From Desulfonatronospira sp. (GTDB taxonomy: Bacteria; Desulfobacterota; Desulfovibrionia; Desulfovibrionales; Desulfonatronovibrionaceae): a DNA stretch of 56,228 nt. The first letter of the stretch is position 1, and every line of letters starts with the position of its first letter. Where the stretch lies: the NCBI GenBank assembly GCA_007125075.1, contig SLDX01000036.1, positions 1-56,228 on the forward strand. Reading direction: 5' to 3'. The position numbers and the translations under genes were made by a program. This document shows positions 4,782-54,232 of this stretch, in pieces. Under the pieces are notes generated by a model. It was not told the origin of the DNA and did no database searches. It was given only the letters and a program-made list of their open reading frames with translations.

Positions 4782-4830
4782 ATATTTATGTTCCTTAGCC
4801 CCTTAGCAGCTCTTTATCATCTGAGAATAT

Positions 4831-4859
4831 AAAAAGGCAGGTCTTTTACCTGCCTTTTT
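4831..4859 (-). terminator. Intrinsic terminator after clpB
   Basis: A hairpin with arms AAAAAGGCAGGT and ACCTGCCTTTTT surrounds a short loop and has A and T tracts on both sides, so it can act in both directions. It lies 20 bases beyond the clpB stop and separates the chaperone operon from the DUF1786 gene. Confidence 0.88.
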
Positions 4860-4879
4860 GCTTCTGTTTTGTCCAGTAT

Positions 4880-7483: not shown

Positions 7484-7505
7484 AAATGTTCTCTCCTGAA
7501 TGTTT

Positions 7506-7823
7506 TCAAATCAATCTGCGCAACTGCTGGATCTCTTTTTCCTGGCTTTCAATACGCTCAAGCAGATCCACGATGATCATTCCTCCTATTGTGGACAGCT
7601 CAAAATCTCTGCATATACGCACAAGTTTCTGGACCCTGAAAATTTCCTTTACAGGGAAATGGTAACTTTCAACAGAAGTCTGAACTGATTCCACCCAGCC
7701 CATTTCCACCAGTTCGTTAAGCATGTTAGGGGATACTCCTGTAAGCTGAACGAACTGAGACCAGTGTATCAGTTTTGATCTGATCAGGGCGCCATTTCTT
7801 CGTTTATCAATAAAGTCAGACAT
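7506..7823 (-). CDS. cbpM: CbpM-like MerR-type chaperone modulator
   Basis: A 105-residue protein with a MerR-like helix-turn-helix ([27 protein letters not shown]) and a C-terminal coiled coil ([18 protein letters not shown]). CbpM proteins bind the J domain of CbpA and tune its co-chaperone activity; related proteins are annotated as MerR regulators. The open frame extends upstream, but the start at 7823 is chosen because GGGAGG precedes it at the right distance and the longer version would overlap cbpA. Placement between cbpA and clpB supports the role. Confidence 0.85.
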
Positions 7824-36439: not shown

Positions 36440-36865
36440 GTGAAGGTACTTCGAACACCCCACATGGAAAGATGCATTGGCTGTTATTCATGTTCTCTGG
36501 CCTGTGCCCGCAGTGTCTACAAGTCATTGTCGTGGAAAAGGGCAGGCATTCAGATCCGTTCATCCGGCGGCATAAGTACAGGATTTGAAGCCGGAGTCTG
36601 CCTGGCCTGCGATCCGGCGCCCTGCGCTGCTGCATGTCCTACTGATGCTCTGCGCCAAAGAAAAGGCGGCGGGGTAATTTTCAGGGAAAAGCTGTGCATA
36701 AACTGCGGCGAGTGCGCCAAGGCCTGTCCGGTAGATGCGATATATTTTGATCCGGAATGGTCTACGCCGGTATTATGTATCCACTGCGGCAGATGCGTCT
36801 CTTTTTGCCCGCACGATTGTCTGGAAATGATGGATGTATCCAAGGAGAAAAAAAATGCGGAATAG
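36440..36865 (+). CDS. Polyferredoxin, electron partner of AOR
   Basis: A 141-residue iron-sulfur protein with cysteine sets for four [4Fe-4S] clusters: CIGCYSCSLAC, CLACDPAPCAAAC, CINCGECAKAC and CIHCGRCVSFC. It starts at a GTG (36440) that has GGAGG eight bases upstream, so the GTG is trusted. A perfect TATAAT -10 lies at 36380, although no matching -35 is evident, and a small GGTAAA/TTTACC hairpin lies at 36401-36419. It overlaps the aldehyde oxidoreductase gene by 11 bp, so it is the likely electron acceptor of that enzyme. Cytoplasmic. Confidence 0.9.
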   Translation: MKVLRTPHMERCIGCYSCSLACARSVYKSLSWKRAGIQIRSSGGISTGFEAGVCLACDPAPCAAACPTDALRQRKGGGVIFREKLCINCGECAKACPVDAIYFDPEWSTPVLCIHCGRCVSFCPHDCLEMMDVSKEKKNAE

Positions 36866-38627
36866 ATTCAAGGTTATGGTTGTGGATTTATCCAGGGAGA
36901 AATCCACAGTTGAATATTTTGACACCCGGAACACCTGGCTGGGAGGCAGCGGTCTTTCCGCGGGACTTTTCAGTCATTACGCCTTGATGGATGAGGACCC
37001 CTTTCATCCCGACCAGCCGCTGATTCTGGCGATTGGACCGCTGACAGGCTATTTTCCCCTTATGAGTAAAACCGTTCTGGGCTTCATGTCTCCCTACAAC
37101 GGCCAGTATGCTGAATCTCACGCGGGTGGACGCTCGGCCCTGGCCCTCAAATTCGCAGGCTACGACGCCCTGGTGCTCAAAGGCCGGGCCAGAAAGCTGA
37201 TCTGCGTCGGTCTTGGCTCCAAGGAAGTTCATGTCCAGGACGTACATTTTCTGAAAGGTATGGACATATTCAAGACCGGCAAGAAAATGCGGACCATGAA
37301 ACCGAGAAATCCCGGACACAGAAGCATTCTGCGCATAGGACCAGCCGGTGAAAACCTGGTCCGTTATTCCTGCATCAATGTGGATACCTACAGGCATTTC
37401 GGACGCATGGGCGGCGGCACGGTCATGGGAATCAAGAACATCAAAGGAATCATACTCTCCGGGGACAGCCACATGGATCTGGATCCTGAACTGAGAAAGG
37501 AATACACAAAAGTCTATGATGAAATCTACACTCAAGTAGTTCAAAGCGGAACCATGCGCAAATATCACGACCTGGGTACACCGGAAAACCTCATTCCCCT
37601 CAATGAACTGCACGCTCTTCCATGGCGCAATCTCCAAAGCACTCACGATCCAGGGGTGGAAGCCATCTCCGGTGAGACATTCGCCAGGGACCTCCTGTTA
37701 AGGCAAGTGGCCTGCGCCGGTTGTCCTGTCGGCTGCATTCATATCGGACTTCTTCGTGAACGGTTTGGAAAGGAGCATGAATATCTCTACAGGCAGGTAT
37801 CCTACGACTATGAACCCATATTCGGAGTAGGCAGTATGCTGGGCGTTGCATCCGGGCCCGGGGTGCTCACCTTGCTTGAGGATGTTGAAAAATTGGGTCT
37901 TGATGCCATAAGCGCCGGAGTTGCCCTGGCCTGGGCGACCGAAGCTTTGGAAAAAGGCCTGATAACCAAAGATCAGACTCTGGCTCCTCTTGAATTCGGA
38001 AACGTTCAGGCCTATCAGGAAGGACTCAGGCACATTGCTGAACAACCCAACAAATTCTATCAGACCCTGGCTATGGGCACAATGGTGGCTGCAGAAAAAT
38101 TCGGTGGAGAGGACTTCGCCTGTGTACTGGGTCAGGAGATGGCAGGATACGCTACAGGGGAGAACTATTACGTAAGTCAGGCTCTGGGCCTCAGGCATTC
38201 TCACCTTGATACCGGAGCCTACAGTTTCGACCAGGAGAAGGATTCCAAGGATACCGGGGAAGCGATAAGCTTTATGCAGGATCAGGAAGATTACCGGGTT
38301 CTCATGTGTTCCATGGTCGGCTGCCTTTTCGCCCGTAAAGTATACCCTAAAAACAACCTGCTCAAAGCCTTGAATTCAGTTGGCTATTCATTCAATGAAC
38401 ACGAATTGGACGCTGTAGTTAAAAACATCAAGGCCCACCGCTGGGCGCTTAAATTCAGAACAGGATTCAAGCCGGAAGAGGTTAAGATTCCTTCCAGATA
38501 TCTGGAGGTTCAAACCTGGAAAGGAAAAGCTGATCCGGACTACATGAACAGGCTTAAAAAAGAGTATGCACAGGTTTTAAGAGAAATGGCCGAAAACTGG
38601 CAAAAAGAAATGGAAGCCGAGAAATGA
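36855..38627 (+). CDS. Aldehyde:ferredoxin oxidoreductase family (tungsten enzyme)
   Basis: A 590-residue member of the AOR family, which oxidises aldehydes to acids with a bis-pterin tungsten (or molybdenum) centre and one [4Fe-4S] cluster. Family segments are WLGGSGLSAGLF, AIGPLTGYFPLMSK, SHAGGRSALALKFAGYDALVLKG and RIGPAGENLVRYSCI. The cluster cysteines CAGCPVGC lie at 287, 290 and 294, with a fourth cysteine near MCSMVGC. The start at 36855 is set by AAGGAG. Substrate unknown. Operon: polyferredoxin, this enzyme, then nitroreductase, all with overlapping ends. Confidence 0.93.
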   Translation: MRNRFKVMVVDLSREKSTVEYFDTRNTWLGGSGLSAGLFSHYALMDEDPFHPDQPLILAIGPLTGYFPLMSKTVLGFMSPYNGQYAESHAGGRSALALKFAGYDALVLKGRARKLICVGLGSKEVHVQDVHFLKGMDIFKTGKKMRTMKPRNPGHRSILRIGPAGENLVRYSCINVDTYRHFGRMGGGTVMGIKNIKGIILSGDSHMDLDPELRKEYTKVYDEIYTQVVQSGTMRKYHDLGTPENLIPLNELHALPWRNLQSTHDPGVEAISGETFARDLLLRQVACAGCPVGCIHIGLLRERFGKEHEYLYRQVSYDYEPIFGVGSMLGVASGPGVLTLLEDVEKLGLDAISAGVALAWATEALEKGLITKDQTLAPLEFGNVQAYQEGLRHIAEQPNKFYQTLAMGTMVAAEKFGGEDFACVLGQEMAGYATGENYYVSQALGLRHSHLDTGAYSFDQEKDSKDTGEAISFMQDQEDYRVLMCSMVGCLFARKVYPKNNLLKALNSVGYSFNEHELDAVVKNIKAHRWALKFRTGFKPEEVKIPSRYLEVQTWKGKADPDYMNRLKKEYAQVLREMAENWQKEMEAEK

Positions 38628-39220
38628 ATCTTCACGAAATGGTGGTCAGAACCAGAAGTTTCCGGCGTTTTAATGAACAGCACAGGGTAAGTATCGAAAC
38701 CCTGACTTCCCTGGTGGACCTGGCCAGGCTGACAGCTTCGGCGGGCAATCTGCAGCCTTTGAGATACATCATCAGCAATGATCCGGAAGTAAACAGAGAA
38801 ATTTTTACCTGCCTTTCCTGGGCTGCTCTTTTGAAGGAATGGCCCGGACCTGCAGAAGGAGAGAGACCATCAGCATATATTGTCATACTGGGTGAAAAAA
38901 CTAAAGCCAAAACCGCTGTCTGGGATATGGGCATAGCTGCTCAGACCATCATGCTCGGTGCCACTGAATCAGGGCTTGGCGGCTGCATCCTTGGTTCAAT
39001 AAACAAGGAAAAACTGAACCCGATGCTGCAGGTTCCTGATCATCTTCAAATACTTCTTGTCCTGGCTCTGGGCAGGCCCAGGGAAAAAGTGATTCTGGAA
39101 ACGCTTAAGCCTGGTCAGGACATCAATTACTGGCGCGACGAAAAAAAAGTGCACCATGTCCCTAAAAGACCTCTGGAAGAGATTCTTATCCGTATCCATA
39201 GCGGGCAGGATAAGGAATGA
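38624..39220 (+). CDS. Nitroreductase-family flavoprotein
   Basis: A 198-residue FMN enzyme of the nitroreductase superfamily. Features are MVVRTRSFRRFNEQHRVS at the N-terminus (FMN phosphate contacts), ARLTASAGNLQPLRYI, GIAAQTIMLGATESGLGGCILGS, and LALGRPREKV. Substrate cannot be deduced; flavin-linked reduction with electrons from the adjacent polyferredoxin or NAD(P)H is possible. It overlaps the AOR gene by four bases (ATGA), a sign of translational coupling. Confidence 0.88.
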   Translation: MNLHEMVVRTRSFRRFNEQHRVSIETLTSLVDLARLTASAGNLQPLRYIISNDPEVNREIFTCLSWAALLKEWPGPAEGERPSAYIVILGEKTKAKTAVWDMGIAAQTIMLGATESGLGGCILGSINKEKLNPMLQVPDHLQILLVLALGRPREKVILETLKPGQDINYWRDEKKVHHVPKRPLEEILIRIHSGQDKE

Positions 39221-40148: not shown

Positions 40149-40306
40149 GTCAGTCTCTCTTGGCTAAGCTTCCAGTATCTAAAATTTACCAGTATAAGAA
40201 TATTGCGGGTTTTAAGGCATCATATCTCATGCCCTGACGCCGCAGCTTGATCCTGCCCTCAGTCACGCGCTTATTCTTGCGCTCACTTCCCCGATAAAAA
40301 TCACAA

Positions 40307-40340
40307 GCTCCCAGAAGCATGAAATCATGTCCCTGGGAGC
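40307..40340. repeat. Nested stem-loop upstream of YitT
   Basis: Outer arms GCTCCCAG (40307-40314) and CTGGGAGC (40333-40340) enclose an inner CATGA/TCATG hairpin. It is too weakly followed by T to call a terminator. It could be a regulatory RNA structure in the YitT leader (minus strand). Unsupported as a gene: the short frame at 40186-40458 covering it has no ribosome site. Confidence 0.4.
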
Positions 40341-41182
40341 CCTTTAGCCCTTTTGAAGTCCGAGGATATTTTACAAAGAGTTCTTTCAAAGGGTCAAGAC
40401 AAAGTTCAGCTAAAAATAAATTTATATATCGGCGATTCGAAATCATGAAGTATAACAATTTTTGATAAACATTATTACATTTCAGGCCATGCAGACAAAA
40501 GAAAGTAAGCTAATTATTACAAATATTTACATTATTTTTTAGATATAAAAAATCTTTTTTTGTTGACCTGTTTTTCCCTATCTACAATTAAGCCGTTTAA
40601 ATTATTAAATAAATCAATTAGATTCTGAAAATGCCAAATAAAAAAGTCTGCCTCTGAATCGAGGATTAATCTTGATATTTGGAGTCATTACATTTTGGGT
40701 TGAAAAACGTTCTAATTTGTAATAAGAATTATATAAATCAGAAAGACGGGCAGGAGAAAATTATGTAAAGCCATAAACATTTGACATTGGAGTTTAAAGC
40801 TTTAACTATTTAAAAACCATGATTTCAACTCACAACAAATCATTATTTTCAGGACAATGTTGCTTTCTGTTTCTCACTGCGATGCTTGCCCTGACAACGA
40901 TACACAGCTCGCATTAATAAGGTGCAACGTTATATGGTTCTGCATCCTGCTGTACTCAGGACACACTGGACATGACATACAGACAGAAAAAAAGCTGCTG
41001 CATCTCTTGATCAAAAATCACCGGTTTCGGTTCCCTGCCGAAACATGCCTGGATAATTACCGCGGGCATCCTGCTCACGGCGTGCAAGCTGATCCCCATA
41101 CACATTCCTGACTTGCACCTAAAAAGAATAATCAACTGAGCTGCCGCATATACCGGCAAATCAAAACTCAAGGAGGCTGAGT
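40341..41182. other. Long gene-free A+T-rich region before the corrinoid operon
   Basis: More than 800 bases with no credible gene. A TTGACA at 40781-40786, 16 bases and TAACTA (40803-40808) is the best promoter candidate, and a TTGAAA/TAAGAA pair at 40700-40728 is weaker. If the first is used, the operon has a leader of about 370 bases. I looked for a cobalamin riboswitch here and found no convincing conserved box. Confidence 0.45.
40781..40808 (+). promoter_or_regulatory. Candidate sigma-70 promoter of the corrinoid methyltransferase operon
   Basis: A perfect -35 (TTGACA) and a fair -10 (TAACTA) lie 16 bases apart. They are the only good pair in the 1-kb intergenic region upstream of the operon. 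Confidence 0.45.
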
Positions 41183-41821
41183 ATGTCTGAAAAATTTGGA
41201 AAAATTGCTGACGGTCTGCTGCACGGCAAAATCGATGAAGTCGCTGCGCTAACTCAGGAACTGCTGGATGAAGGCGTTGATCCTGATGAAGTTTTACAGA
41301 AAGGACTTTTTGCAGGCATGGATGTTGTCGGGAAAAAATTCAAGAACTGCGAAATGTTTATTCCCGAAGTTCTGCGCTCGGCTAAAGCCATGCATGCCGC
41401 CATGGACAAGCTGCGCCCCGTTCTCTCTGAAGAAGGCGGCTCCAGGGCCGGTACCGTGGTCATGGCCACTGTGCAGGGCGATCTGCATGACATAGGCAAG
41501 AACCTGGCCGGCATGATGATGGAAGGCGCTGGTTTTAACATCATCGACATGGGCATAGACCGCAAGACAGAGGATATAGTGGATATGGTCAAAGAAAAAA
41601 AACCCCAGATACTTGGCTTGTCCGCTCTTTTGACCACCACTATGCCCAAAATGGGAGAAGTTATAAATGCTTTAAAGGAAGCAGGCATCCGGGATCAGGT
41701 CAAGGTGATCGTGGGAGGCGCTCCTGTAACTGATGATTTTGCCCGTGAAATCGGTGCAGATGCTTATGCTCCCAATGCGTCCATTGGGACAGAAAAAGCC
41801 CTGGAACTGATCAAGGCTTAA
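41183..41821 (+). CDS. Methylamine-type corrinoid protein (MttC-like)
   Basis: A 212-residue cobalamin-binding methyl carrier. An N-terminal four-helix cap (about 1-85, FAGMDVVGKKFKNCEMFIPEVLRSAKAM) precedes a Rossmann-like B12 domain with the base-off ligand motif DLHDIG (Asp100-x-His102-x-x-Gly105), GLSALL (Ser147) and IVGGAPV (178-179). Similar proteins accept methyl groups from MttB-type methyltransferases and pass them to a pterin-linked methyltransferase. AAGGAGG stands before the ATG. It is the first gene of the operon, 44 bp before the first MttB-like gene. Confidence 0.95.
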   Translation: MSEKFGKIADGLLHGKIDEVAALTQELLDEGVDPDEVLQKGLFAGMDVVGKKFKNCEMFIPEVLRSAKAMHAAMDKLRPVLSEEGGSRAGTVVMATVQGDLHDIGKNLAGMMMEGAGFNIIDMGIDRKTEDIVDMVKEKKPQILGLSALLTTTMPKMGEVINALKEAGIRDQVKVIVGGAPVTDDFAREIGADAYAPNASIGTEKALELIKA

Positions 41822-41865
41822 AAAAATCAACCAAAGTTGGAAAAAAAGAACACAGGAGCCTTATT

Positions 41866-43317
41866 ATGCCTAAAATCAACCAAACCATACAGACAACCCC
41901 TTATTTTCAGGTCCTGTCCGAAAATCAGATCGAGATGATCTACTCAGCAGCTCTGGACGTTATCCAGAGCACCGGCTCGCGCTTTCATCACGATGAAGCA
42001 CTGGAGCTGTTCAAAAACAGCGAAGCTGTGGTGACAGACGGCAATCTGGTCAGAATACCGCTGTCTCTGGTGGAAAGAGCCATTAAGTGTCATCCCCGCA
42101 AAATAAATCTGACTGGAAGAACGGGCAAAAATACCATTAAACTGGAAAAAAACGTGGTCAATTTTGGAACCGGATCCGACCTGCCCTTTACTTATGACCG
42201 GGAAACAGGTGAACGCAGGCGCACAGAATATAAAGATGTGGTCAATGCGGCAAGGATCGTTGATTATCTTCCGAATCTGGACTTTTTCATGTCCCACGGT
42301 ATTGTCCAGGATGTACCCAATCCCCAGACCTATGACCGGCACCAGTTCATGGCCATGCTTGAAGGCTGCACCAAGCCGATGGTCTTGACCACTGTAGACG
42401 GGGAAGGCCTTGAGGATATGTGGAAAATGGCCGCCCTGTTCCGCGGGGATGAAAAGGAATACAGCCTGAACCCCTTATTTGTAACCTATATTGAACCGAT
42501 TTCCCCGCTCAAGAATGACCGCACGGCAGTTGAAAAACTCCTGTTCTGCGCGGAAAAAGGCATCCCGTGCATGTATACCCCCTGCCCCAGTTCAGGAGCT
42601 ACTGCACCTGCGACCATGGCCGGGATGCTGGTCCAGTCTCTGTCGGAAACCCTTATGGCCTCGGTGCTGACTTATCTGAAAAAGCCTGGAATGCCCCTGA
42701 TTATGGGCGGAGTGACCACTGTCCTGGACATGATCACCACCACCTACTCCTATGGAGCACCCGAACTGTCACTGGCATCTGCAGCCAACACGGATATCTC
42801 CAAATGGATCGGTCTGCCCATGTTTTCAACAGGAGGATGCACCGATGCCAAGGTTCTTGACGAACAGGCAGCTATTGAATCGGCAACCAGCAATTTTTAC
42901 GCCTATTTGTCCGGAGCCAGCCTTGTACATGATGTTGGCTATATAGACAGCGGAGTAAACGCCTCTCTGGAAAGCCTGGTCATGAACGACGAAATCATCG
43001 CGATGATCAGACAGATGGGCAAAGGGATCAATACCGAGGAGGAATATCTGGCTTTAGAGCTTATCGACAAGATAGGCCCCGGCGGTGAATACCTGACCAC
43101 GGAACATACCTTGAAGCATTATAAGGAATGGTTTCAGCCAAGGCTTCAGGATAGATCGGATTACGAGACATGGGTCCGCGAGGGTAAAAAGACCATGAAT
43201 GATCGTATCCGCGAGGAAACAGACCGCATTCTCAGGGAACATTATCCTGAGCCCATAGATGACAAAATCCGCCAGGAGCTTGAAGAAATAATTAATGCTG
43301 CTGAAAAGCGTCATTAA
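41866..43317 (+). CDS. MttB-superfamily methyltransferase 1 (non-pyrrolysine)
   Basis: A 483-residue member of the trimethylamine methyltransferase superfamily. The frame is continuous through the full family length with no in-frame amber codon, so it is of the non-pyrrolysine (MtgB-like) type, whose known members demethylate glycine betaine, carnitine or other quaternary amines. Landmarks include MYTPCPSSGATAPATMAGMLVQSLSE, YGAPELSLASAANTDISKW and STGGCTDAKVLDEQAAIESAT. Substrate unknown. AGGAG precedes the ATG. It follows the corrinoid gene and precedes a second member by 148 bp. Confidence 0.93.
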   Translation: MPKINQTIQTTPYFQVLSENQIEMIYSAALDVIQSTGSRFHHDEALELFKNSEAVVTDGNLVRIPLSLVERAIKCHPRKINLTGRTGKNTIKLEKNVVNFGTGSDLPFTYDRETGERRRTEYKDVVNAARIVDYLPNLDFFMSHGIVQDVPNPQTYDRHQFMAMLEGCTKPMVLTTVDGEGLEDMWKMAALFRGDEKEYSLNPLFVTYIEPISPLKNDRTAVEKLLFCAEKGIPCMYTPCPSSGATAPATMAGMLVQSLSETLMASVLTYLKKPGMPLIMGGVTTVLDMITTTYSYGAPELSLASAANTDISKWIGLPMFSTGGCTDAKVLDEQAAIESATSNFYAYLSGASLVHDVGYIDSGVNASLESLVMNDEIIAMIRQMGKGINTEEEYLALELIDKIGPGGEYLTTEHTLKHYKEWFQPRLQDRSDYETWVREGKKTMNDRIREETDRILREHYPEPIDDKIRQELEEIINAAEKRH

Positions 43318-43465
43318 TGAACAATCAATTAGGTTCTGGAAATTGAATTTATGAAGAAGTTTTGGATCCGGCAGAAAATCTTTTGTCTGCAGGAGACTGC
43401 TTCACCTTAAATTATGATTCACTGCTCCTAAAAGGTCCACAGTAAACACCCCGAGGAGGATTTTT

Positions 43466-44938
43466 ATGGCTAATGATAAAACCAACTGCATTGTTAATCG
43501 CAGTCCAAGGTTTTCATTTTTATCCGAGGATCAGAAGCAGACCATCTTTCATGGAATGCTCAAAGTCCTGCAGGATACCGGAGCAAATGTTCACCACGAA
43601 CAGGCCCGGGATATTTTCAAGAAACATGGATGCAAGGTGGATGGAGTAAGGGTTTATATTCCGCCCAATCTTGTCCGCCAGGCTTTGCAGTCCGTTCCAT
43701 TGATGACCACGATCTTTGACTGGGAAGGCAACCCCCGCATTTATATTGAGGAAAACCGCAGCTATTTCGGCCCGGGTCCTACTCTTGTCTATTTCAGGGA
43801 TCCATGGACTCTGGAACGCAGGAAATGTCTGCGCAAGGATGCCACAACAGTGGCCAGGGTGTGCGATGCCCTGCCCAACATCGGTTTTGTGGAGGGACTT
43901 GTTACCATAAGCGATGTACCCAGAGGGACTGATGACGTATTTGAGTTTGCGGACATGATCCAAAATACCACCACACCGATTATGGCCTGGTCCTATCATC
44001 GAGGCGGAGCCAGAGATCTGCACCGCATAGGGTGCATAATGGCCGGTGGAGAAGAAGCTTTCAAGAAAAAGCCAAACTACATTTTGTACAGTGAGCCCAT
44101 TTCTCCACTCGTCAGCGATTTTCACGCCATTGACAAGCTCATGTACTGTGCCGAACACGGGATACCACAGGATTACAGTCCATGCGCAATCGGCGGAGGA
44201 ACGGTTCCGGCCACTCACGCAGGCCAGCTGGTGGTAGCTCTTTCTGAATCAATGGTGGGCGTTGTTCTGTCTCAGCTCATAAATCCGGGAACCTGCATTA
44301 TTCTGGGCGGAGTACAATCCATTCTGGACATGCGCCGGGGCATCTATTCATATGGAGCGCCGGAATTGAACGTGCTGAGCGGCGGCCTGACTGAAATGGC
44401 CCGTTACTGTGGACTGCCGATGTTCGGAACAGCCGGGTGTACCGACACCAAGGTCATGGAGATTCAGTCCGGCATAGAGGCAACTCTGCAAATACATACA
44501 TCCATGCTTACCGGGGCCAATTTTGTTCATGACTGCGGCTATACCGAGTCAGGCAAGACCGGAGACATCTTCCAGACGGTCATGGATGATGAAATCATCA
44601 GCATGGCCAGAATCATTGAAGAAGGCATAGAGGTCACCGAAGAGACACTGGCCGTGGACGTAATCAACAGCGTAGGCTCAGGTGGTCATTATCTCTATGA
44701 AGACCACACCATGAAATGGTTCCGCAAGCATTGGCGCCCTACCCTGATGGATCGACAGAGCTATGAAGACTGGGACAAATCCGGGCGAAAGACCATGCAG
44801 GACCGGATCATGGAAAAGACCCGCGATATTCTTGAAAATCATGAAGGACCCATTTCCAGAGTGCCCGAAGAAGTGAAAAAAGATATTCAGAAGGTTATCG
44901 ACGGCGCAGTGGAAAGAGTTGAAAAAGAAGGACTGTAA
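43466..44938 (+). CDS. MttB-superfamily methyltransferase 2 (non-pyrrolysine)
   Basis: A 490-residue paralogue of the gene before it, sharing SLVERAI-like and YGAPELN...CTDTKVMEIQSGIEAT patterns but clearly diverged, so a different amine substrate is plausible. No in-frame amber codon occurs. GAGGAGG lies just before the ATG. Methyl transfer to the corrinoid protein at 41183 is inferred from order and family. The C-terminal part (YEDWDKSGRKTMQDRI) matches the same region of the first copy. Confidence 0.92.
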   Translation: MANDKTNCIVNRSPRFSFLSEDQKQTIFHGMLKVLQDTGANVHHEQARDIFKKHGCKVDGVRVYIPPNLVRQALQSVPLMTTIFDWEGNPRIYIEENRSYFGPGPTLVYFRDPWTLERRKCLRKDATTVARVCDALPNIGFVEGLVTISDVPRGTDDVFEFADMIQNTTTPIMAWSYHRGGARDLHRIGCIMAGGEEAFKKKPNYILYSEPISPLVSDFHAIDKLMYCAEHGIPQDYSPCAIGGGTVPATHAGQLVVALSESMVGVVLSQLINPGTCIILGGVQSILDMRRGIYSYGAPELNVLSGGLTEMARYCGLPMFGTAGCTDTKVMEIQSGIEATLQIHTSMLTGANFVHDCGYTESGKTGDIFQTVMDDEIISMARIIEEGIEVTEETLAVDVINSVGSGGHYLYEDHTMKWFRKHWRPTLMDRQSYEDWDKSGRKTMQDRIMEKTRDILENHEGPISRVPEEVKKDIQKVIDGAVERVEKEGL

Positions 44939-45131
44939 ACCTTGGTAATGCGGTGACAGAAACCGGCAACAGGACGCAAAAACAGAATAAATAAGCATAT
45001 ACCAGAAACTTATTTTATTTCTAAGCTTCTTAGACTTAAGGCAACAGTCTCGCAGGATGCGTGGTTCTGCTCCTGGTTTCTGATCACTGTTCCGGAGTTT
45101 TTTAACTTATTTCAAACTTACTTAAGCAAGA

Positions 45132-47186
45132 ATGATTATGACTGCACTCAAACTGAACACCCGCAACCCATGGGATCAAATTATAAAAACAGATATTGAA
45201 AGGGATTATGTTGTTGGTATTGATACCGGAGGCACTTATACCGATGGTGTGCTCATGGACTACCGGACCAGGGAGATTCTGGCTTCGGCCAAGACACTGA
45301 CAACTTATGAAAATCTAACCACCGGCATCATAAAAGTTCTCAAACAGCTCAGAATTCACAACCCCTCACAGGTCAAGCTGGTGGGAATTTCAAGTACCCT
45401 GGCCACCAACTTCATTGCCGAGGGCAACACCAAACAGGTAGGCCTGATCCTTATTGGATATGACCGCGAACTCATTGAAGGCTATGGTCTTGACGCCAGA
45501 TTTGCCACTGAAAGTTTCGCCTATTTCAAAGGAGGACATAACGCCCAGGGTGAAGAGCAGTGTCCGCCTGATCTGGAAGGAATCCTTTCCTGGGTCGAAG
45601 GTCACGCAGTCGATCTGGAAGCTCTGGCGATTTCCAGCTACTTCAGCCCCCTGAATCCAGAGCACGAAGAAAAGGTATTGCGGGCGGTGCGGGAAATAAC
45701 AGACATGCCGGTTGTCCTTGGACACCAGCTCTCAACCAGGCTGGACTCCGTCAAGCGTGCGACGACGGCATCTTTAAATGCCTCCCTGGTGGCAGTCATG
45801 CATGAATTTATTCAGGCGGTTAAATCTTCTCTAAGAGATCTCGGGTTAAAGGCCCCATTGATGATCGTCAAGGGAGACGGATCTCTAATGCCTTATACCG
45901 AGGCTGCGCAAAAACCCGTAGAAACCATACTTTCCGGACCCGCTGCCAGTGCCATAGGCGGACGCTTTCTGTCCGGTCAGGAGAGAGCCCTGGTCATTGA
46001 TGTGGGCGGTACCACAACAGATATGGCTTTGATCGAAAACGGCAATATCAACGTCTCTGATGAAGGCGCTAGGGTTGGAACCATGGAAACCTCTGTTCAG
46101 GCAGCCCGCATACGCACAGTCTGCATCGGTTGCGACAGCAGAATCGATATAATTTCCAAAAAGGAATTTCGTGTCGGACCAAACAGAGTGGTTCCGTTGT
46201 CAAGACTGGCAGCCATGCATCCACAGGTGGAAGAAAAACTGCTGAACATAGATAAAAAGCATCGCACCGGAAAAAGCCGGAATAATATTGAATACTGGTT
46301 CCTGGCCAGGGAATTAGATCATGATGATCCCTTGCCTGCTCATTCCCGAAAAACGGCGCTCCTGGAAATGCTGGCTCAGGGACCTGTCAGCGTTGCAGAA
46401 CTGCTGGACAGGATGAAACTTAACCATCCTGTCCAGCTCAATGCGGAAGACCTGATCCAGAAAAGAATCGTGGGAGTTTCCACGCTTACCCCGACCGACA
46501 TTTTACACGCCAGGGGTGAGCTGAACCTGGACAATGCTGATGCAGCCAGAAAAGCCCTTCAGTATGCCTGCAGTCTTCATGATCTGGATCCCGGGGAATT
46601 CTCAGCCAGACTCATGGAGCATATTGTCTTCAGGCTGACCAGGGAAGCTTTAATTTTTCTGGCCAGGCACGGCAATGCCGATAATCTGCCTGAAGAACCT
46701 GACGGAGAATGGGCCGACTGGTTCTTCGAAGAAGGGTTTCACAAAAAGGATCACTGTATAAGCATAAGTCTGTCCAGCCGGTTCCCGGTCATCGGCATCG
46801 GTGCGCCCGCACAGATTTTCGTGCGTCTGGTGGCTGAGAAGCTTAATTCCAGATTTGAGCTGCCCGATCACCCTGAAGTTGCCAATGCTGTGGGTGCGGT
46901 TGCCGGATCGGTTGTAGTGGACAAGGAAGCGCTTATTTATCTCCAGGAATCAGATTCTTCCCGATCTTACATTGTGCAGTTCGAAGGAGAAAAGACATCT
47001 TTCAAAGAAGCCGAAGAAGCTTTGGCTTTTGCGGAAAGAAAAACCGGAAGATCAGCTCGTTTTGCAGCTGAAGAGGCTGGAGCGGATAATCCCCGGCTGA
47101 AAATGAACAGGAAGATCGAAGGTGCTCTGCAGCGGATTCAAGCCAGGGCTGTAGGCAACCCCAAGCTTTCCGAGCAATTCGGGTGA
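45132..47186 (+). CDS. Hydantoinase/oxoprolinase-type (HyuA-like) ASKHA protein
   Basis: A 684-residue protein of the HyuA group: VVGIDTGGTYTDGVLMD (phosphate-1 loop) at the start, ISSTLATNFIAEG, VKRATTASLNASL, LMIVKGDGSLM, and VIDVGGTTTDMAL further on. Classic members hydrolyse hydantoins or oxoproline with ATP; others act as activators. It lies in the corrinoid operon beside the RACo-type activator, so ATP-driven conditioning of a cofactor or substrate is a guess. The alternative start is the ATG at 45138; no good ribosome site is visible for either. About 70 residues longer than the minimal family. Confidence 0.82.
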   Translation: MIMTALKLNTRNPWDQIIKTDIERDYVVGIDTGGTYTDGVLMDYRTREILASAKTLTTYENLTTGIIKVLKQLRIHNPSQVKLVGISSTLATNFIAEGNTKQVGLILIGYDRELIEGYGLDARFATESFAYFKGGHNAQGEEQCPPDLEGILSWVEGHAVDLEALAISSYFSPLNPEHEEKVLRAVREITDMPVVLGHQLSTRLDSVKRATTASLNASLVAVMHEFIQAVKSSLRDLGLKAPLMIVKGDGSLMPYTEAAQKPVETILSGPAASAIGGRFLSGQERALVIDVGGTTTDMALIENGNINVSDEGARVGTMETSVQAARIRTVCIGCDSRIDIISKKEFRVGPNRVVPLSRLAAMHPQVEEKLLNIDKKHRTGKSRNNIEYWFLARELDHDDPLPAHSRKTALLEMLAQGPVSVAELLDRMKLNHPVQLNAEDLIQKRIVGVSTLTPTDILHARGELNLDNADAARKALQYACSLHDLDPGEFSARLMEHIVFRLTREALIFLARHGNADNLPEEPDGEWADWFFEEGFHKKDHCISISLSSRFPVIGIGAPAQIFVRLVAEKLNSRFELPDHPEVANAVGAVAGSVVVDKEALIYLQESDSSRSYIVQFEGEKTSFKEAEEALAFAERKTGRSARFAAEEAGADNPRLKMNRKIEGALQRIQARAVGNPKLSEQFG

Positions 47187-47258
47187 CGGATAAGGATGGG
47201 TTCAGGATCAAGGATTAAGGATTCAGGATCAAGGATTTAGGATTAAGGATTGGGTTCA
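47187..47258. repeat. Heptad repeat tract, locus 2 (reverse orientation)
   Basis: Tandem imperfect units such as AGGATCA, AGGATTA and AGGATTC right after the HyuA-like stop codon. They are the reverse complement of the unit at 34970-35058. Confidence 0.78.
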
Positions 47259-47388
47259 GTTCCCGGAATTTAATAATAAGAAAATCAAATGTTATCAGCA
47301 TAAAGCTAAGCTCAAAATTCGATCTTGAGGCTTTTTGCCGATAAATTTTATAAAAGCACTAAAAACAAAAAACTTCTAGAGAACTTAA

Positions 47389-47937
47389 ATGCAACATCAG
47401 TACATTCTTGCGGCTATGGGCAGCAACAGACCAGGTGTGGTGGCTGAAGTGACTGAGGCCATCTATACTGCGGCCTGCAGCATAGAAAACTCCTATATGA
47501 CTCTTATGGGAATACACTTCACCCTGATGATCCATGTGGTCGCAAATGATCATGAACAATACAGACGACTGGAAGACAACCTTCAATTACTGGAACATAA
47601 AGATGACCTGCAGGTGCATGTTTTCCCAATGGAGCATGATGAAATTGAACTGTCCAGGGCAAGAGAAAGTGAACCCCATTATGAAATACGGGTGCGGGGA
47701 ACCAATAAGGCCGGAATAGTTTACCGTACATCCAAATTGCTGGCCAGCAGGGGAATTAACATAATCAAGCTGAGCACCAAGGTTGACCGGTCCAGACATT
47801 TGCAGCAGCCGATTTTTACCATGCGCATCGCCATAGAGGTGCCCCAGAAAGTCAACGGCAAGTCCCTGCGAAGAGACCTGGAAGCCCTGGCTGAAGATCT
47901 GCAGGAAACCATAACTTTGACTCGTAAACGGGATTGA
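47389..47937 (+). CDS. Double-ACT-domain protein (GcvR-like)
   Basis: A 182-residue protein made of two ACT domains (about 1-85 and 92-178), each starting with a typical ligand-binding turn: GSNRPGVVAEVTEAIY and GTNKAGIVYRTSKLLASRGINI. The layout is that of GcvR, the glycine-cleavage repressor partner. ACT domains bind amino acids, often glycine or serine. Demethylation of betaine yields dimethylglycine and then glycine, so sensing of the amino acid is a plausible inference. It abuts the RACo gene. Confidence 0.85.
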   Translation: MQHQYILAAMGSNRPGVVAEVTEAIYTAACSIENSYMTLMGIHFTLMIHVVANDHEQYRRLEDNLQLLEHKDDLQVHVFPMEHDEIELSRARESEPHYEIRVRGTNKAGIVYRTSKLLASRGINIIKLSTKVDRSRHLQQPIFTMRIAIEVPQKVNGKSLRRDLEALAEDLQETITLTRKRD

Positions 47938-47951
47938 AAAGTGAAAACACC

Positions 47952-49670
47952 ATGCCCCGGATAAAAGTTCAGCCCATAGATGTAACCATAGAAGCCCGTG
48001 AAGGAGAAACCCTCCGGGATATTCTGCTTCGCCGAGGCATAAATGTGGAAAGCCCCTGCAATGGAAACGGCCTTTGCGGGAGTTGCGGCGTCTGGATAAC
48101 AGAACATGAAAGTGTTCCTTACACACCTAATGAGCATGTTTCAGAAAGCGATCTGGAAAAAGGATATCGTTTGACTTGTATGGTCATTCCTGAACAGGAT
48201 ATGACCATTAAGCTGTCCATGAATTTTGTCCGCGATGCCAAGATTTTCAGGGAGTCGCAGACCATTCTTGAAGGAGAACTGGCTCCGACCTACAGGCTGG
48301 TCAGCGCGGTCAAAGTTCTGGATCATCAGAACACCACTGAGTTTATCTATGATAATTTTCCAGAAGCCCAGGCTTTAAATATCTGGGAAGACGATTATGA
48401 GCCAAAGGGTCTGGCCATTGACCTGGGCACCACCACTATAGTGGTCACTCTGGTTTCTTTGAAAACCGGAGTGGAACTGGCTACTGCTTCAAGGCTTAAT
48501 CCTCAGATTAATTTCGGGCACGACGTAATGACCAGGATTCAGCACGGCTCCACCCAGGAAGGACTTCATGAACTGGCTGAATCGGTACGCAAGGGCATAA
48601 ATGAACTGATCCACGAAGTATGTGTCGATTCCGAATCCAAACGTCAGGAGATCCTGGATGTCGTTGTTGGAGGCAATACGACCATGCTCCAGATCCTGGC
48701 CGAAATCGATCCCGCACCCCTGGGGGCAATCCCTTTTACTGTGGATATCAAAACCGGCATCAGCTATCCAGTGAAGCAATTCGGGATAAGAATCAATCCA
48801 GCCGGCCGGGTATACATCGCCCCTGTTCTGCATGCATTTATCGGCTCAGATATCAGTGCGGGCCTGCTTATTCACAGTGATTTCTTCGATGACACCAAAT
48901 CGGTGCTTTTTGTGGATGTAGGCACCAACGGAGAAATCGCCCTTAATTTTTTCGGCAGACGACTGGCATGCTCAGCCGCGGCCGGTCCCGCGTTTGAAGG
49001 TATGGGGCTGTCCTGCGGAATGCGCGCATCATTCGGGGCAATTGAGTCAGTATCAACCAATGGTCAAAAGATTTTGCTTTCCACTGTGGGCAATGCTCCT
49101 CCAAGGGGCATCTGCGGCAGCGGCATTGTGGACCTGGTTGCCGCTTTGCTGCGTCTTGGAGTTATTGACCAGACCGGACGATACTGCAGTCTGCCTTGTG
49201 CGGAACTTCCCGTGGCTGCACGCTCACGGCTCAGGGAAATTGAAGGCCAGACCGCCTTTATACTCGGCAGGGACATAGCCTTTACCCAAAGAGATGTGCG
49301 CCAGGTTCAGCTGGCCAAAGGCGCTGTGCGCGCGGCCATAGACGTGCTTATGGATGAAGCGGGCTGCAGGGTTGAGGACCTGGATTCAATAATTATTGCC
49401 GGCGGCTTCGGATTCTATCTGGACCCGGAAAATCTTGAAACAATAGGCATTATTCCCAAAGGAACAAAGGATCGGGTGGAATTCGCCGGAAATGCCTGTC
49501 GCAGCGGTTGCGTCTGGATGCTTACTGATATCTCTTATCGACGTTTTCTGGAGACCTGTATTCAGGACATTGAACATGTATCAGTGGCTCAGTCTCCAAA
49601 ATTTATGGAATTATACGCAGAAAGCATGGAATTCTCGGGAATCGAAACAGAATCAGCATCCTGTGATTGA
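47952..49670 (+). CDS. RACo/RamA-type reductive activator of corrinoid proteins
   Basis: A 572-residue protein that restores Co(II) corrinoid to the active Co(I) state using ATP. The N-terminal [2Fe-2S] ferredoxin domain has Cys36, Cys42, Cys45 and Cys76 (CX5CX2C...C). A middle domain and a large ASKHA domain follow: GLAIDLGTTTIVVTLVSL, VVGGNTTMLQILAEIDP, FVDVGTNGEIALN. I choose the ATG at 47952; the frame also allows a TTG at 47934, which would overlap the ACT gene by four bases. This architecture is that of RACo (ferredoxin plus ASKHA), distinct from the dicluster RamA of methanogens. Works with the corrinoid protein at 41183. Confidence 0.93.
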   Translation: MPRIKVQPIDVTIEAREGETLRDILLRRGINVESPCNGNGLCGSCGVWITEHESVPYTPNEHVSESDLEKGYRLTCMVIPEQDMTIKLSMNFVRDAKIFRESQTILEGELAPTYRLVSAVKVLDHQNTTEFIYDNFPEAQALNIWEDDYEPKGLAIDLGTTTIVVTLVSLKTGVELATASRLNPQINFGHDVMTRIQHGSTQEGLHELAESVRKGINELIHEVCVDSESKRQEILDVVVGGNTTMLQILAEIDPAPLGAIPFTVDIKTGISYPVKQFGIRINPAGRVYIAPVLHAFIGSDISAGLLIHSDFFDDTKSVLFVDVGTNGEIALNFFGRRLACSAAAGPAFEGMGLSCGMRASFGAIESVSTNGQKILLSTVGNAPPRGICGSGIVDLVAALLRLGVIDQTGRYCSLPCAELPVAARSRLREIEGQTAFILGRDIAFTQRDVRQVQLAKGAVRAAIDVLMDEAGCRVEDLDSIIIAGGFGFYLDPENLETIGIIPKGTKDRVEFAGNACRSGCVWMLTDISYRRFLETCIQDIEHVSVAQSPKFMELYAESMEFSGIETESASCD

Positions 49671-49739
49671 CAGCTGCTGTTTTATATTCGGCAATTGAAC
49701 ACCTGATAAGCTTAAATAATTTTCAAAATGGAGGTTATT

Positions 49740-50540
49740 ATGCACATAGTCGGAGAACTGATAAACGCCAGCAGAAAAAGCGTGGGCGAAGCCATCAAGA
49801 CTCAGGATGCAGAGACCATAAAAAAATTGGCCAGGGAACAATACGAACATGGAGCGCATTACATAGACGTCAACGCCGGGATATTTGTAGGCAGAGAAAA
49901 GGAATATATGCAATGGCTTATAAATCTGGTTCAGGAAGAAGTTGATGTCCCTTGCTGTATAGACAGCCCCGACCCGGTTGTTGTAGAATCGGCATTGAAG
50001 ATGCACAAGGGGGGCATTCCCATGCTCAATTCCATCTCACTGGAAAAGGACCGTTTTGAAAACCTGCTCCCCATAATTGCTGAATATAAGTGCAAGGTTG
50101 TTGCTTTATGCATGAGTGACGAGGGGATGCCGGAGACCGCTGATGACCGCTTCTCTATTGCAGAAAAGCTGGTCAATGTTCTGGTTCAAAAAGGCGTAAA
50201 TCCAGATGACATATATGTGGATCCCCTGGTCCAGCCTATCTCTACGAACAAATCATATGGGGTTGAATTTTTAGACTCCATAGAAATGATTATGACCAGG
50301 CTGGAAAGCGTGCATACTATCTGCGGCATGTCCAATATATCCTTTGGATTGCCCAAAAGGCCCCTCCTGAACAGAGCATTTGTGATCATGAGCGTGCTTA
50401 AGGGGCTGGATACCGCCATCATCAATCCACTGGATTCCAATATGATGGCAAATATCATCGTTGCTGAAACCCTTGCCGGCAAGGATGATTACTGCATGAA
50501 CTTTCTGGAGGCTTACCGGGCCAACAAACTGGAAATTTAA
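49740..50540 (+). CDS. Methyltetrahydrofolate:corrinoid methyltransferase (AcsE/MtgA type)
   Basis: A 266-residue TIM barrel of the pterin-binding (DHPS/MeTr) family. HIVGELINASRKSVGEAI, the YIDVNAG segment (pterin-binding Asp), CCIDSPDPVVVE, MLNSISLEKDRF and ICGMSNISFGLPKR are characteristic of methyltetrahydrofolate methyltransferases. It would transfer the methyl group from the corrinoid protein to tetrahydrofolate, linking amine demethylation to central one-carbon metabolism. The start at 49740 is set by TGGAGG. In Desulfitobacterium a homologue (MtgA) does this in glycine betaine demethylation. Confidence 0.93.
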   Translation: MHIVGELINASRKSVGEAIKTQDAETIKKLAREQYEHGAHYIDVNAGIFVGREKEYMQWLINLVQEEVDVPCCIDSPDPVVVESALKMHKGGIPMLNSISLEKDRFENLLPIIAEYKCKVVALCMSDEGMPETADDRFSIAEKLVNVLVQKGVNPDDIYVDPLVQPISTNKSYGVEFLDSIEMIMTRLESVHTICGMSNISFGLPKRPLLNRAFVIMSVLKGLDTAIINPLDSNMMANIIVAETLAGKDDYCMNFLEAYRANKLEI

Positions 50541-50551
50541 AAAAAACAGGG

Positions 50552-51292
50552 ATGATCGGAAAAGACATGTTCAAGGGAGAAAATCAAGGAGAAGACAGCG
50601 TTCTCAAATCCAAGTCCCCGCGGGTGGTTATCGCCTGCGGGGTTTTCAGGCCTGAACTCGAACTTTTGCGCAGCGGACATGAGGATGAGGTCAAGACAAT
50701 ATATCTGCCGCAGAACATGCACCGCTCGCCTCATCTGCTCCCGGAAATGATTCAGGAACAGGTGGATCAGGCTGAAAATTACGCATCCAGAATAATTTTA
50801 GGCTACGGACTTTGCTCCAACGGGATAGTAAATGTAAAAGCCCCGAAACAGGGGCTGGCCGTGACCAAGGCTCACGACTGCATTGCTCTTTTCCTGGGCT
50901 CTCTGGAAAGATACAGGCAGATCAGCCGGAATAATGCCGGGATATACTATCTTACCAGGGGCTGGATCGAAGAAGGAAAAGATCCTCTGGGGACTCTGGA
51001 GAAGGAATATATTCCCAGATTGGGCCGGGCCTGGGCTGAATGGGGTTCCAAAGAAGAGATCAAGCACTACTCACAGTTCATGCTTATCAATACCGGCGTC
51101 GGCGATATCGAAGCTTTAAGAGAAAGGTCCAGAGAAAACGCCCGGTATTATGAAAAGGATTTTCAGGAAGTGGAAGGTGACCTTACCTATCTGCGAAAGA
51201 TTCTCTTCGGTCCGTACGACAGGGAATATTTTTACCTGGTCCGGCCATTTGAGCGGGTGCAGCAGCGCTGGTATGTCCTGGAAACAGCCTGA
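50552..51292 (+). CDS. DUF1638 protein
   Basis: A 246-residue DUF1638 protein: VVIACGVFRPELELL near the start, IILGYGLCSNGIVNVKAP, and AHDCIALFLGSLERY are the conserved blocks. The family turns up near MttB-type methyltransferases and corrinoid genes, with unproven function. The conserved Cys in GLCSNG and CIAL may bind metal, which is a guess. The ATG at 50567, with GGA six bases upstream, is an alternative start. It is separated by 11 bp from the methyltransferase gene. Confidence 0.85.
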   Translation: MIGKDMFKGENQGEDSVLKSKSPRVVIACGVFRPELELLRSGHEDEVKTIYLPQNMHRSPHLLPEMIQEQVDQAENYASRIILGYGLCSNGIVNVKAPKQGLAVTKAHDCIALFLGSLERYRQISRNNAGIYYLTRGWIEEGKDPLGTLEKEYIPRLGRAWAEWGSKEEIKHYSQFMLINTGVGDIEALRERSRENARYYEKDFQEVEGDLTYLRKILFGPYDREYFYLVRPFERVQQRWYVLETA

Positions 51293-51420
51293 TCCGAAAC
51301 TGCTGAATTATTATAATACTTTTTTTGAACCTTGAGCATCATTTTTACCTGGCCTCTAAGTTCTTCTCTGAGGTTTATACGGGGTACAGCTTATTGATGT
51401 GCAAAATAAAAGGAGGAGAA

Positions 51421-52269
51421 ATGAACACTGATCAAGACTCAGTCATTCAAACCGCAAAGAAATATTACGACAGCCACGATGCCCATACATTTTACTGCAC
51501 TGTGTGGGGCGGCGAAGACCTGCACCTGGGCATTTACCGCCGGCCTGAGGATACCATTTTCAAAGCCAGCAGACGCACAGTGGAGCGAATGGCCTCATAT
51601 TCCCGCAATTTGAAAAATAAAGGCAGCACTGCCAAAGTACTCGATCTGGGCTCAGGAATCGGAGGCACTGCCCGCCATCTGGCAAGGACATGCGGCTGCA
51701 GGGTAGTGGCCCTGAATCTCAGCGAATCGGAAAACAACCGGCACCGCAAGATGAATCAGGAACAGGGTCTGGACAATCTGATAGAGGTGGTGGACGGCAA
51801 TTTTGAGCGGATTCCCTATGAAGACCAAACCTTTGATGTGGTCTGGTCCCAGGATGCTTTCCTGCACAGTCCGGATAGAAAACAGGTTTTAAAGGAGGCT
51901 GTGCGGGTCCTGAAATCTGGAGGAGAACTTATATTCACCGATCCCATGCAGACTGAAGATGCTTATGCGGAATATCTGGATCCGATATTGAAGCGCATTC
52001 ACCTTAGTTCTCTGGCTACACCTTCATTTTACCGATTAACAGCGGAAGAACTGGGTCTGAAACTGAAGGCCTTTGAGAACTTGCAGGTACATCTGACCAA
52101 CCATTACGCCAAAGTCCTTGAAGACACGTTAAGGCTCGAAGAGGAACTGTACAGGAAAAATGTCAGTCAGGAATATCTGGAACGCATGAAGCAGGGGCTT
52201 AACAACTGGAGCAAGGGAGGCAGGTATGGACATTTGACCTGGGGCATTTTCTGCTTTGAAAAGCAATAA
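51421..52269 (+). CDS. SAM-dependent methyltransferase, sarcosine/dimethylglycine type
   Basis: A 282-residue class I methyltransferase. Motif I VLDLGSGIGGTARHLA (73-88) begins the SAM-binding fold; VVALNLSESENNRHR, IPYEDQTFDVVWSQDAFLHSP and GGELIFTDPMQTED follow. The N-terminal FYCTVWGGEDLHLGIY and the C-terminal LERMKQGLNNWSKGG resemble dimethylglycine/sarcosine N-methyltransferases of halophiles that form glycine betaine. Exact substrate unproven. The start at 51421 is chosen for its strong AAAAGGAGGAG. It is last in the corrinoid locus and followed by a palindromic terminator. Confidence 0.85.
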   Translation: MNTDQDSVIQTAKKYYDSHDAHTFYCTVWGGEDLHLGIYRRPEDTIFKASRRTVERMASYSRNLKNKGSTAKVLDLGSGIGGTARHLARTCGCRVVALNLSESENNRHRKMNQEQGLDNLIEVVDGNFERIPYEDQTFDVVWSQDAFLHSPDRKQVLKEAVRVLKSGGELIFTDPMQTEDAYAEYLDPILKRIHLSSLATPSFYRLTAEELGLKLKAFENLQVHLTNHYAKVLEDTLRLEEELYRKNVSQEYLERMKQGLNNWSKGGRYGHLTWGIFCFEKQ

Positions 52270-52290: not shown

Positions 52291-52336
52291 AATTATTTTT
52301 GACTGCCGGTTTATAAACCGGCAGTCAAAAATAATT
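52291..52336. terminator. 46-bp perfect palindrome, bidirectional terminator
   Basis: Arms at 52291-52312 and 52315-52336 are exact reverse complements around a two-base loop, with A and T tracts at the ends. It separates the methyltransferase gene from the oppositely directed RHH gene and should stop transcription from both sides. Confidence 0.92.
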
Positions 52337-52849: not shown

Positions 52850-54232
52850 TTATTTTATGCTGCATGCCCTGATATCCGCGTCAACGCCGATTCCCAGAGT
52901 TTTGACAAAACTTACATAATGTCGCCTGTTTGAGGTATGATCGTCAAAAAGGCCGGTGCCGATATTGTATGTCTTACCCGGAACCAAAATTTTATCGTCA
53001 GGATTGCCGGTATCCAGTTTTCTTCTTAGCTCTACCGTCCAGACACCATTTGCATATGAACCATTGGCCGTGACGTCTCCGGCACTGCCTTCAGGTTTTC
53101 TGAGAACTCGTCTTGAGAGAATGTCTCCTTTTTGGAAATCTACCTCAGGATCAAACTTTACAGCAGTTTCGCCGATTATCAATGGAAAATCCCTGATATG
53201 CTCCTCAAACCTGGATTCAGGTATGGCCTTGAATCCTGTTATACTCTGGTCATACATCCATTCCGGTTCATCAGGAGTTTTAAACGGCTGCATTCCGTCA
53301 TCAGATTTCCGGTATTCAAAAACAAAATCATCACCGGCATACCCGACAGGATTTGACCTGGCCGCTCTCCACTGCCATAAATCCATAAATTTACCCTGAT
53401 TAAAAAGATTGTCCAATTCTTCCCGATTTTTCAGTTTATCCCAGGCGCCGGCTTCATTCTGCTCAGTCCTGGTAATGAGCAGGTATTTGCGTACGTCTTC
53501 GCGATCCAGGCCTTCACGGCCTAGATATGGATGTTTACGGACCTGCTCGCTGGAGGGTTCGTGAGACATTTGGCGCATACTGTTGTGACAGGTTATGAAA
53601 CATCCGGATTTGGAAAAACTTGCCTGGCAAGCATCTGATGCCTTCAGATTTTGATCATCAATAATAACAGCCAACCTGTCCTCATAGCTTGGCAGAATAT
53701 TTTCCCTGTCCGCTTCCGGTCTTTGTGCGCCGTATCTTTGCCACTCATGACCGTCAAATCTCCACAGGTCATGGGTTTGTCCCGGTCTATCGGATGCCCA
53801 TTGAAATCTGATGTAAAAATACTCATTGTCATAGGCCGCTTTTACCTGGACATCCTTTACAGGCTGTTTGCCGGGAATCGGATCCGGTTCCCGAGGCCCT
53901 GGTTCAATAAGTTCTTCTCCCAACTCCCCGGGCTGATGACAGTTGCTGCAGCGCATATCACCCACTCCTGCCGCTCCGGCATGCTCCCTGCTGACAAGCC
54001 ATTGCCAGGAAGTCTGTCCCGGATAAAAGGCCGTAATGGATGTTGATTCAATCATGTCCCAGTCGCCGGGAAACCGGAAAAGATTTTTTGCTTCAATTTT
54101 AATTTCTTTCCCGGATTGATGCTCTTCTACGTTCATTTCCTTATCCCTGCTTTGAACGCTCAACGTTCCGGCAACCACCAAGGCTGTGACCAGTATTGGG
54201 ATGAAAAAAAGAAAAATTTTATTTGAACTCAT
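52850..54232 (-). CDS. Exported ethylbenzene-dehydrogenase-like (EB_dh) heme protein
   Basis: A 460-residue protein with an N-terminal signal anchor (about 6-24), a c-type heme motif CSNCH at 95-99, then a region related to the EB_dh heme-binding domain (VKAAYDNEYFYIRFQWA near 130). A second cysteine set CFITCH at 211-216 has three residues between cysteines instead of two. Members of this family are electron-carrying subunits near DMSO-reductase-type enzymes; none is encoded here. Periplasmic location and electron transfer are inferred. GAGGAG precedes the ATG. Confidence 0.82.
   Translation of the reverse strand: MSSNKIFLFFIPILVTALVVAGTLSVQSRDKEMNVEEHQSGKEIKIEAKNLFRFPGDWDMIESTSITAFYPGQTSWQWLVSREHAGAAGVGDMRCSNCHQPGELGEELIEPGPREPDPIPGKQPVKDVQVKAAYDNEYFYIRFQWASDRPGQTHDLWRFDGHEWQRYGAQRPEADRENILPSYEDRLAVIIDDQNLKASDACQASFSKSGCFITCHNSMRQMSHEPSSEQVRKHPYLGREGLDREDVRKYLLITRTEQNEAGAWDKLKNREELDNLFNQGKFMDLWQWRAARSNPVGYAGDDFVFEYRKSDDGMQPFKTPDEPEWMYDQSITGFKAIPESRFEEHIRDFPLIIGETAVKFDPEVDFQKGDILSRRVLRKPEGSAGDVTANGSYANGVWTVELRRKLDTGNPDDKILVPGKTYNIGTGLFDDHTSNRRHYVSFVKTLGIGVDADIRACSIK

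Follow-up and report, generated by a model that had tools for sequence, protein, structure and literature searches.

The 56,228-nucleotide stretch of Desulfonatronospira sp. analysed here (contig SLDX01000036.1 of assembly GCA_007125075.1; hereafter the window) carries a cassette in which two non-pyrrolysine MttB-type methyltransferases, MttB-A and MttB-B, are grouped with a corrinoid protein (MtgC-like), a methyl-tetrahydrofolate (methyl-THF):corrinoid methyltransferase (MtgA-like) and an S-adenosylmethionine (SAM)-dependent N-methyltransferase of the sarcosine/dimethylglycine family (SDMT). We see about an even chance that the cassette serves a halophile-specific, partly corrinoid-dependent biosynthesis of glycine betaine. 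Counted for synthesis are the presence of SDMT in all 17 loci, the window included, whose contig spans that end of the cassette; the SAM-cycle genes beside the cassette in relatives; the absence of any match to a BCCT betaine carrier anywhere in the window; the lack of a detectable classical GSMT, the enzyme that opens the SAM route, in 17 of 25 cassette genomes, most of which are drafts of unknown completeness; and an MttB pocket unlike that of MtgB. The direction of transfer, the substrates of the two MttBs, the metal and the role of the HydA protein described below are inferred. The original prediction had described a demethylation operon: its non-pyrrolysine MttB-type corrinoid/THF methyl transfer with a RACo-type activator stands, whereas demethylation is only possible, and the halophile neighbourhood favours synthesis.

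In the proposed route, MtgA would transfer the methyl group of methyl-THF to the corrinoid of MtgC, and the two MttBs, acting as methylating enzymes, would pass it from methyl-MtgC to amines of the glycine series, the simplest assignment being two steps, from glycine to sarcosine and from there to dimethylglycine. SDMT would then perform the last, energetically uphill quaternary step with SAM. RACo, or in Bacteroidales a SAM activation domain of the MetH type, would keep the corrinoid active, perhaps together with HydA. N-methyl exchange between folate and secondary or tertiary amines should be near thermoneutral and quaternary amine formation uphill; this would account for SDMT being the single SAM enzyme kept. 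More tentatively, and at somewhat less than an even chance, MttB enzymes working in the methylating direction, with a Glu/Cys/Cys/His metal site in place of pyrrolysine, would support methyl-THF/B12-dependent betaine synthesis in anaerobic halophiles of both Desulfobacterota and Bacteroidota, replacing GSMT and sparing SAM.

The MttB pair and SDMT

MttB-A (41866-43317, + strand, 483 aa) and MttB-B (43466-44938, + strand, 490 aa) match PF06253 over their full length (333 and 284 bits, respectively; cut-off 25) and are the sole MttBs of this genome. They are diverged, as predicted, being 39% identical to each other, and neither contains an in-frame stop; both have Cys325 (TGC and TGT, respectively) at the position of Pyl334. 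In a tree of 71 MttB rows, from which MtpB, MtcB and MtyB sequences were left out, the cassette MttB-A clade was supported at 100/100 and the MttB-B clade at 100/99. Both lie within a 56-row clade that excludes Desulfitobacterium hafniense MtgB and Methanosarcina barkeri MttB, and MtgB also falls outside a 58-row clade (99/93) that contains the two. The branchings of A and B agree in the main groups, indicating that the pair travelled together.

The active site of M. barkeri MttB is lined by Met249, Pyl334 and Tyr364 (PMC9842639). At these positions the cassette MttBs have Cys, Cys and His, plus Glu at 219, while MtgB has Leu at all three, plus Asn. Both window proteins thus present Glu210, Cys240, Cys325 and His355 at the catalytic pocket, and the same four residues occur in every cassette A and B row and in a few close relatives. 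The residues proposed for betaine binding in MtgB, Y94, N199, R309 and H345 (PMC6855144), are replaced in the cassette MttBs by Ser/Pro, Glu210, Phe320 and Asp356 (one-residue offset accounted for), with none of the four kept. The close likeness to Desulfitobacterium MtgABC that had been proposed was therefore not borne out, since both MttBs lie outside the MtgB group and all of these contacts are replaced.

The Glu/Cys/Cys/His residues around the pyrrolysine position form a putative metal site. Glu/Cys/Cys presumably resembles the zinc site of MtaB, a resemblance that we take as a lead only. A metal at this site could coordinate the lone pair of glycine, sarcosine or dimethylglycine, and could aid deprotonation if the enzymes methylate or the leaving group if they demethylate. 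We dropped the site as proof against quaternary substrates, because a probably catabolic relative in Halobacteroidaceae (L047) has the same residues.

The SDMT-family gene (51421-52269, + strand) encodes a protein with the TDPM motif whose best PDB match is SDMT 2o57 (E 6e-61); it scores 369 bits (E 2e-110) against NF041675, the equivalog cut-off of which is 550. The open reading frame (ORF) list starts it at TTG 51325, but ATG 51421, preceded by GGAGGAG, is the likelier start. The protein lies near GSMT-linked SDMTs, yet separate from them.

Occurrence, neighbouring genes and GSMT

Desulfonatronospira is a haloalkaliphile of soda-lake sediments, and D. thiodismutans has been listed among the organisms that make betaine via glycine methylation (PMC12807369). 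The cassette also occurs in Desulfohalobiaceae (L036), Desulfobacteraceae (L041, L043, L044 and L099) and roughly a dozen hypersaline Bacteroidales (L037-L040, L042 and L137-L141), with carriers making up 8 of the 393 Bacteroidales genomes sampled. The recurring order is MtgC, MttB-A, MttB-B, HydA, [ACT, RACo], DUF1638/MtgA and SDMT, except that SDMT is placed first in the Desulfobacteraceae loci. Finding this order again in two other families and in a second phylum excludes chance; the gene cluster as observed is real, and the cassette is common to Desulfobacterota and Bacteroidota. Also noted were a tandem pair of MttB-B type genes (L046, 1-2247; 79% and 51% identity to the window protein) and a Desulfobacterota genome (G330; L101, L103 and L104) with 33 MttB matches, among them an MttB-A-HydA-MtgA cluster without SDMT.

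The calls of adjacent MetK, AhcY, MetF, MetH, SHMT and PGDH genes rest on NCBIfam scores above cut-off. The flanks of the Bacteroidales copies hold MetH, MetF, AhcY, MetK and PfkB-type kinases, those of the Desulfohalobiaceae copy MetK, PfkB and SHMT, and those of one Desulfobacteraceae copy (L041) PGDH. Each of the five other Desulfonatronospira loci that extend far enough has metK directly upstream of mtgC, a place occupied in the window by an AT-rich spacer of about 1 kb (40150-41182, + strand; 38% GC). This neighbourhood appears anabolic in halophiles and argues for synthesis.

Parts of MetH adjoin some Bacteroidales copies. G562 has a free-standing MetH activation domain immediately 5' of mtgC. 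The "MetH" found upstream in G574, G594 and G824 comprises just the homocysteine and activation domains. At the hypersaline Bacteroidales loci L162 (6069-7799) and L139-L141 we noted a lone activation domain beside a corrinoid protein and MetH proteins of this two-domain form. Because they are found where RACo is missing, these plug-in domains probably reactivate MtgC. We had also considered the split MetH as proof of methyl flow from methyl-THF through MtgC to homocysteine. This argument was weakened, as the G574 copy lacks one zinc cysteine, and we use the split MetH solely in support of an activation domain that is shared.

Using the N-terminal half of a Roseinatronobacter GSMT-SDMT fusion as the query, we found no GSMT in this genome (97% complete) or in any of the five Desulfobacteraceae-type genomes, of which G187 (99% complete) is one. 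Where found, GSMT is mostly far from the cassette, beside B12 or MetE/MetF genes; in G005 and G006 it is present elsewhere in the genome, and a 234-aa ORF beside it in G005 matched no Pfam family. Only in G562 does a full classical GSMT-SDMT-AhcY-MetK set adjoin a cassette that has its own SDMT, and a control genome (G029) has the classical set with MttB absent.

Remaining genes of the cassette and its surroundings

Profile matches and ORFs placed the corrinoid protein, both MttBs, RACo, the methyl-THF methyltransferase and the DUF1638 protein on the forward strand where they had been described; HydA, a double ACT-domain protein and SDMT are members of the unit that had gone unnamed. The MtgC-like protein (41183-41821, + strand, 212 aa) has Pfam domains B12-binding and B12-binding_2 and the cobalamin motif DLHDIG at residue 100, and scores 224 bits against NF047996 (cut-off 370). 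The MtgA/AcsE-like pterin-binding methyltransferase (49728-50540, + strand) matches PRK07535 at 347 bits (cut-off 259). RACo (47934-49670, + strand; PF14574, PF17651 and PF00111) retains all three of the Fer2, RACo middle and C-terminal ASKHA domains; its start is TTG, with an alternative ATG possible at 47952.

HydA (45132-47186, + strand; PF05378/PF01968) is a hydantoinase-A-like ATPase of the HyuA family of ASKHA proteins. Its AlphaFold2 model (pLDDT 84) gave Foldseek matches to acetone carboxylase beta and N-methylhydantoinase (E 1e-24 to 1e-26) and has a complete HyuA/acetone carboxylase beta fold, while a HyuB partner is absent. HydA is a candidate corrinoid reactivase or partner ATPase, ATP-driven reactivation being a guess. 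The double ACT-domain protein (47389-47937, + strand; PF13740 and PF01842; PRK11589, 48 bits) is GcvR-like and a possible glycine or amino-acid sensor. The DUF1638 protein (50552-51292, + strand; PF07796) has C29, H57, C88 and H108-D109-C110 invariant in an alignment of 14 sequences, a Cys/His pattern typical of a metal site; a PDB fold search with its AlphaFold2 model (pLDDT 88) gave no match below E 0.001.

Intergenic gaps in the unit range from -4 to 202 bp, and a perfect 20-bp inverted repeat with a T-run (52292-52335) closes it and is probably the transcription terminator of the operon. An Rfam scan over 35-56 kb gave no match, and promoter-scan matches were no commoner than chance. Genes for 4Fe-4S ferredoxin-like, aldehyde ferredoxin oxidoreductase-like and nitroreductase-like proteins stand in a row at 36440-39220; the latter two, with a YitT-like gene (at 39285 in the window), are also found upstream of the G005 cassette (L077). 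An ethylbenzene-dehydrogenase-type haem protein with CxxCH motifs (52853-54232, - strand) adjoins the operon end. In L036, a 1181-aa protein that joins a GlcD-like FAD domain to iron-sulfur domains (4124-7669) is encoded between SHMT and mtgC. A protein of 357-359 aa with weak methionine-synthase similarity stands beside SDMT in L036 (17079-18152) and L106 (8191-9270), and is possibly a core methionine synthase of the folate-independent kind.

Direction of methyl transfer and known systems

Several observations weigh against betaine synthesis. To our knowledge, every characterised MttB enzyme demethylates. GSMT was found in 8 of the 25 carriers, so that the need for the MttB pair is not universal; G018, which is 100% complete, lacks both GSMT and such an MttB pair yet carries SDMT, and SDMT in a genome lacking GSMT thus does not alone prove a corrinoid route. 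G824 and G594 additionally hold an 893-aa MetH without the activation domain, which, with the zinc cysteine lost from the G574 copy, weakens the split-MetH argument. The Halobacteroidaceae relative L047 adjoins BCCT carriers and MetVF-type genes and lacks SDMT. Finally, the nearest known clusters with HydA and multiple MttBs (strain DCMF, Sporomusa and Frackibacter) are betaine-induced or reside in betaine fermenters (PMC9768040).

These last points bear on the strongest rival, betaine turnover, in which the MttBs would take betaine to dimethylglycine and then sarcosine, methyl-THF would enter C1 metabolism, and SDMT would rebuild betaine, so that one operon maintains osmolyte homeostasis. We consider turnover a real possibility, at roughly one chance in three, and favour synthesis over it. 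In DCMF grown on betaine, HydA-type clusters with multiple MttBs are abundant and betaine is broken down stepwise to sarcosine (PMC9768040), methyl-THF oxidation is possible in sulfate reducers, and L102 and L104, like L047, lack SDMT. However, co-transcribed synthesis and breakdown of one solute would be futile, SDMT in GSMT-less genomes would merely reverse the work of the MttBs, no carrier gene lies nearby, and MetF, MetH, AhcY and MetK adjoin the cassette in Bacteroidales carriers.

It had also been suggested that the second MttB acts on another quaternary amine, such as carnitine, proline betaine or choline, next to MtgB-type betaine demethylation. Non-pyrrolysine MttBs of known function all use quaternary amines (PMC8604678), but both window proteins fall outside the MtgB group in a tree without MtpB, MtcB and MtyB, lack the MtgB contacts and share an identical Glu/Cys/Cys/His pocket; moreover, the pair is never found apart, always stands beside SDMT, and has no transporter or processing genes for another amine. 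A second quaternary amine is thus unlikely; the co-inheritance of the pair beside SDMT and SAM-cycle genes points instead to successive steps in the glycine, sarcosine, dimethylglycine and betaine series. We regard as slightly less probable still that the MttBs draw on a different source of methyl groups, the cassette feeding methionine and SAM and SDMT acting on imported sarcosine or dimethylglycine: MetH parts and core-methionine-synthase-like genes stand beside some copies (L036 and L139-L141), yet MetF and MtgA already deliver methyl-THF to the corrinoid, and uptake genes are absent nearby.

SAM-based betaine synthesis is among the costliest tasks of halophiles, and energy cost is believed to limit which anaerobes can inhabit high-salt sites. 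If the cassette does make betaine, drawing methyl groups from methyl-THF through a corrinoid would cost less than the SAM route, MttB-type enzymes would gain their first anabolic role, and an mttB gene in a saline metagenome could not simply be taken as a sign of betaine or methylamine breakdown. The Cys/Cys/His pocket would offer a possible non-pyrrolysine means of handling amines with a free electron pair. In open-access papers we found no description of corrinoid-dependent betaine synthesis, nor of such a cassette combined in halophiles with SDMT and the SAM cycle; the parts themselves are of known kind.

The nearest known architecture is that of the HydA-type betaine clusters of strain DCMF (first half), Sporomusa ovata and Ca. 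Frackibacter, known by proteomics in DCMF and by synteny in the other two (Holland et al. 2022, PMC9768040). The window shares with them multiple MttBs, a corrinoid protein, HydA and one methyl-THF methyltransferase, and L047 looks to be of this type. In contrast to those clusters, which have BCCT carriers and belong to betaine fermenters, the window lacks BCCT and includes SDMT, RACo, ACT and DUF1638 in the operon, and SAM-cycle genes stand beside its relatives. D. hafniense MtgABC (PDB 2qne and 9yce) likewise combines an MttB-superfamily enzyme, a corrinoid protein and an MtgA-type methyltransferase, but the similarity to MtgB is distant, the clades are separate, and Leu/Leu/Leu stands against Cys/Cys/His. 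With the GSMT/SDMT route of Halorhodospira, Aphanothece, Methanohalophilus and Thioalkalivibrio the cassette has in common an SDMT-family enzyme and, in relatives, MetK, AhcY and MetF neighbours, while corrinoid/folate methyl transfer takes the place of GSMT. Cobalamin-dependent MetH also moves a methyl group from methyl-THF through a corrinoid to an acceptor, and in some Bacteroidales copies MtgC is probably paired with a MetH activation domain; unlike in MetH, the acceptor proposed here would be an amine, and transfer would be carried out by MttB-type enzymes.

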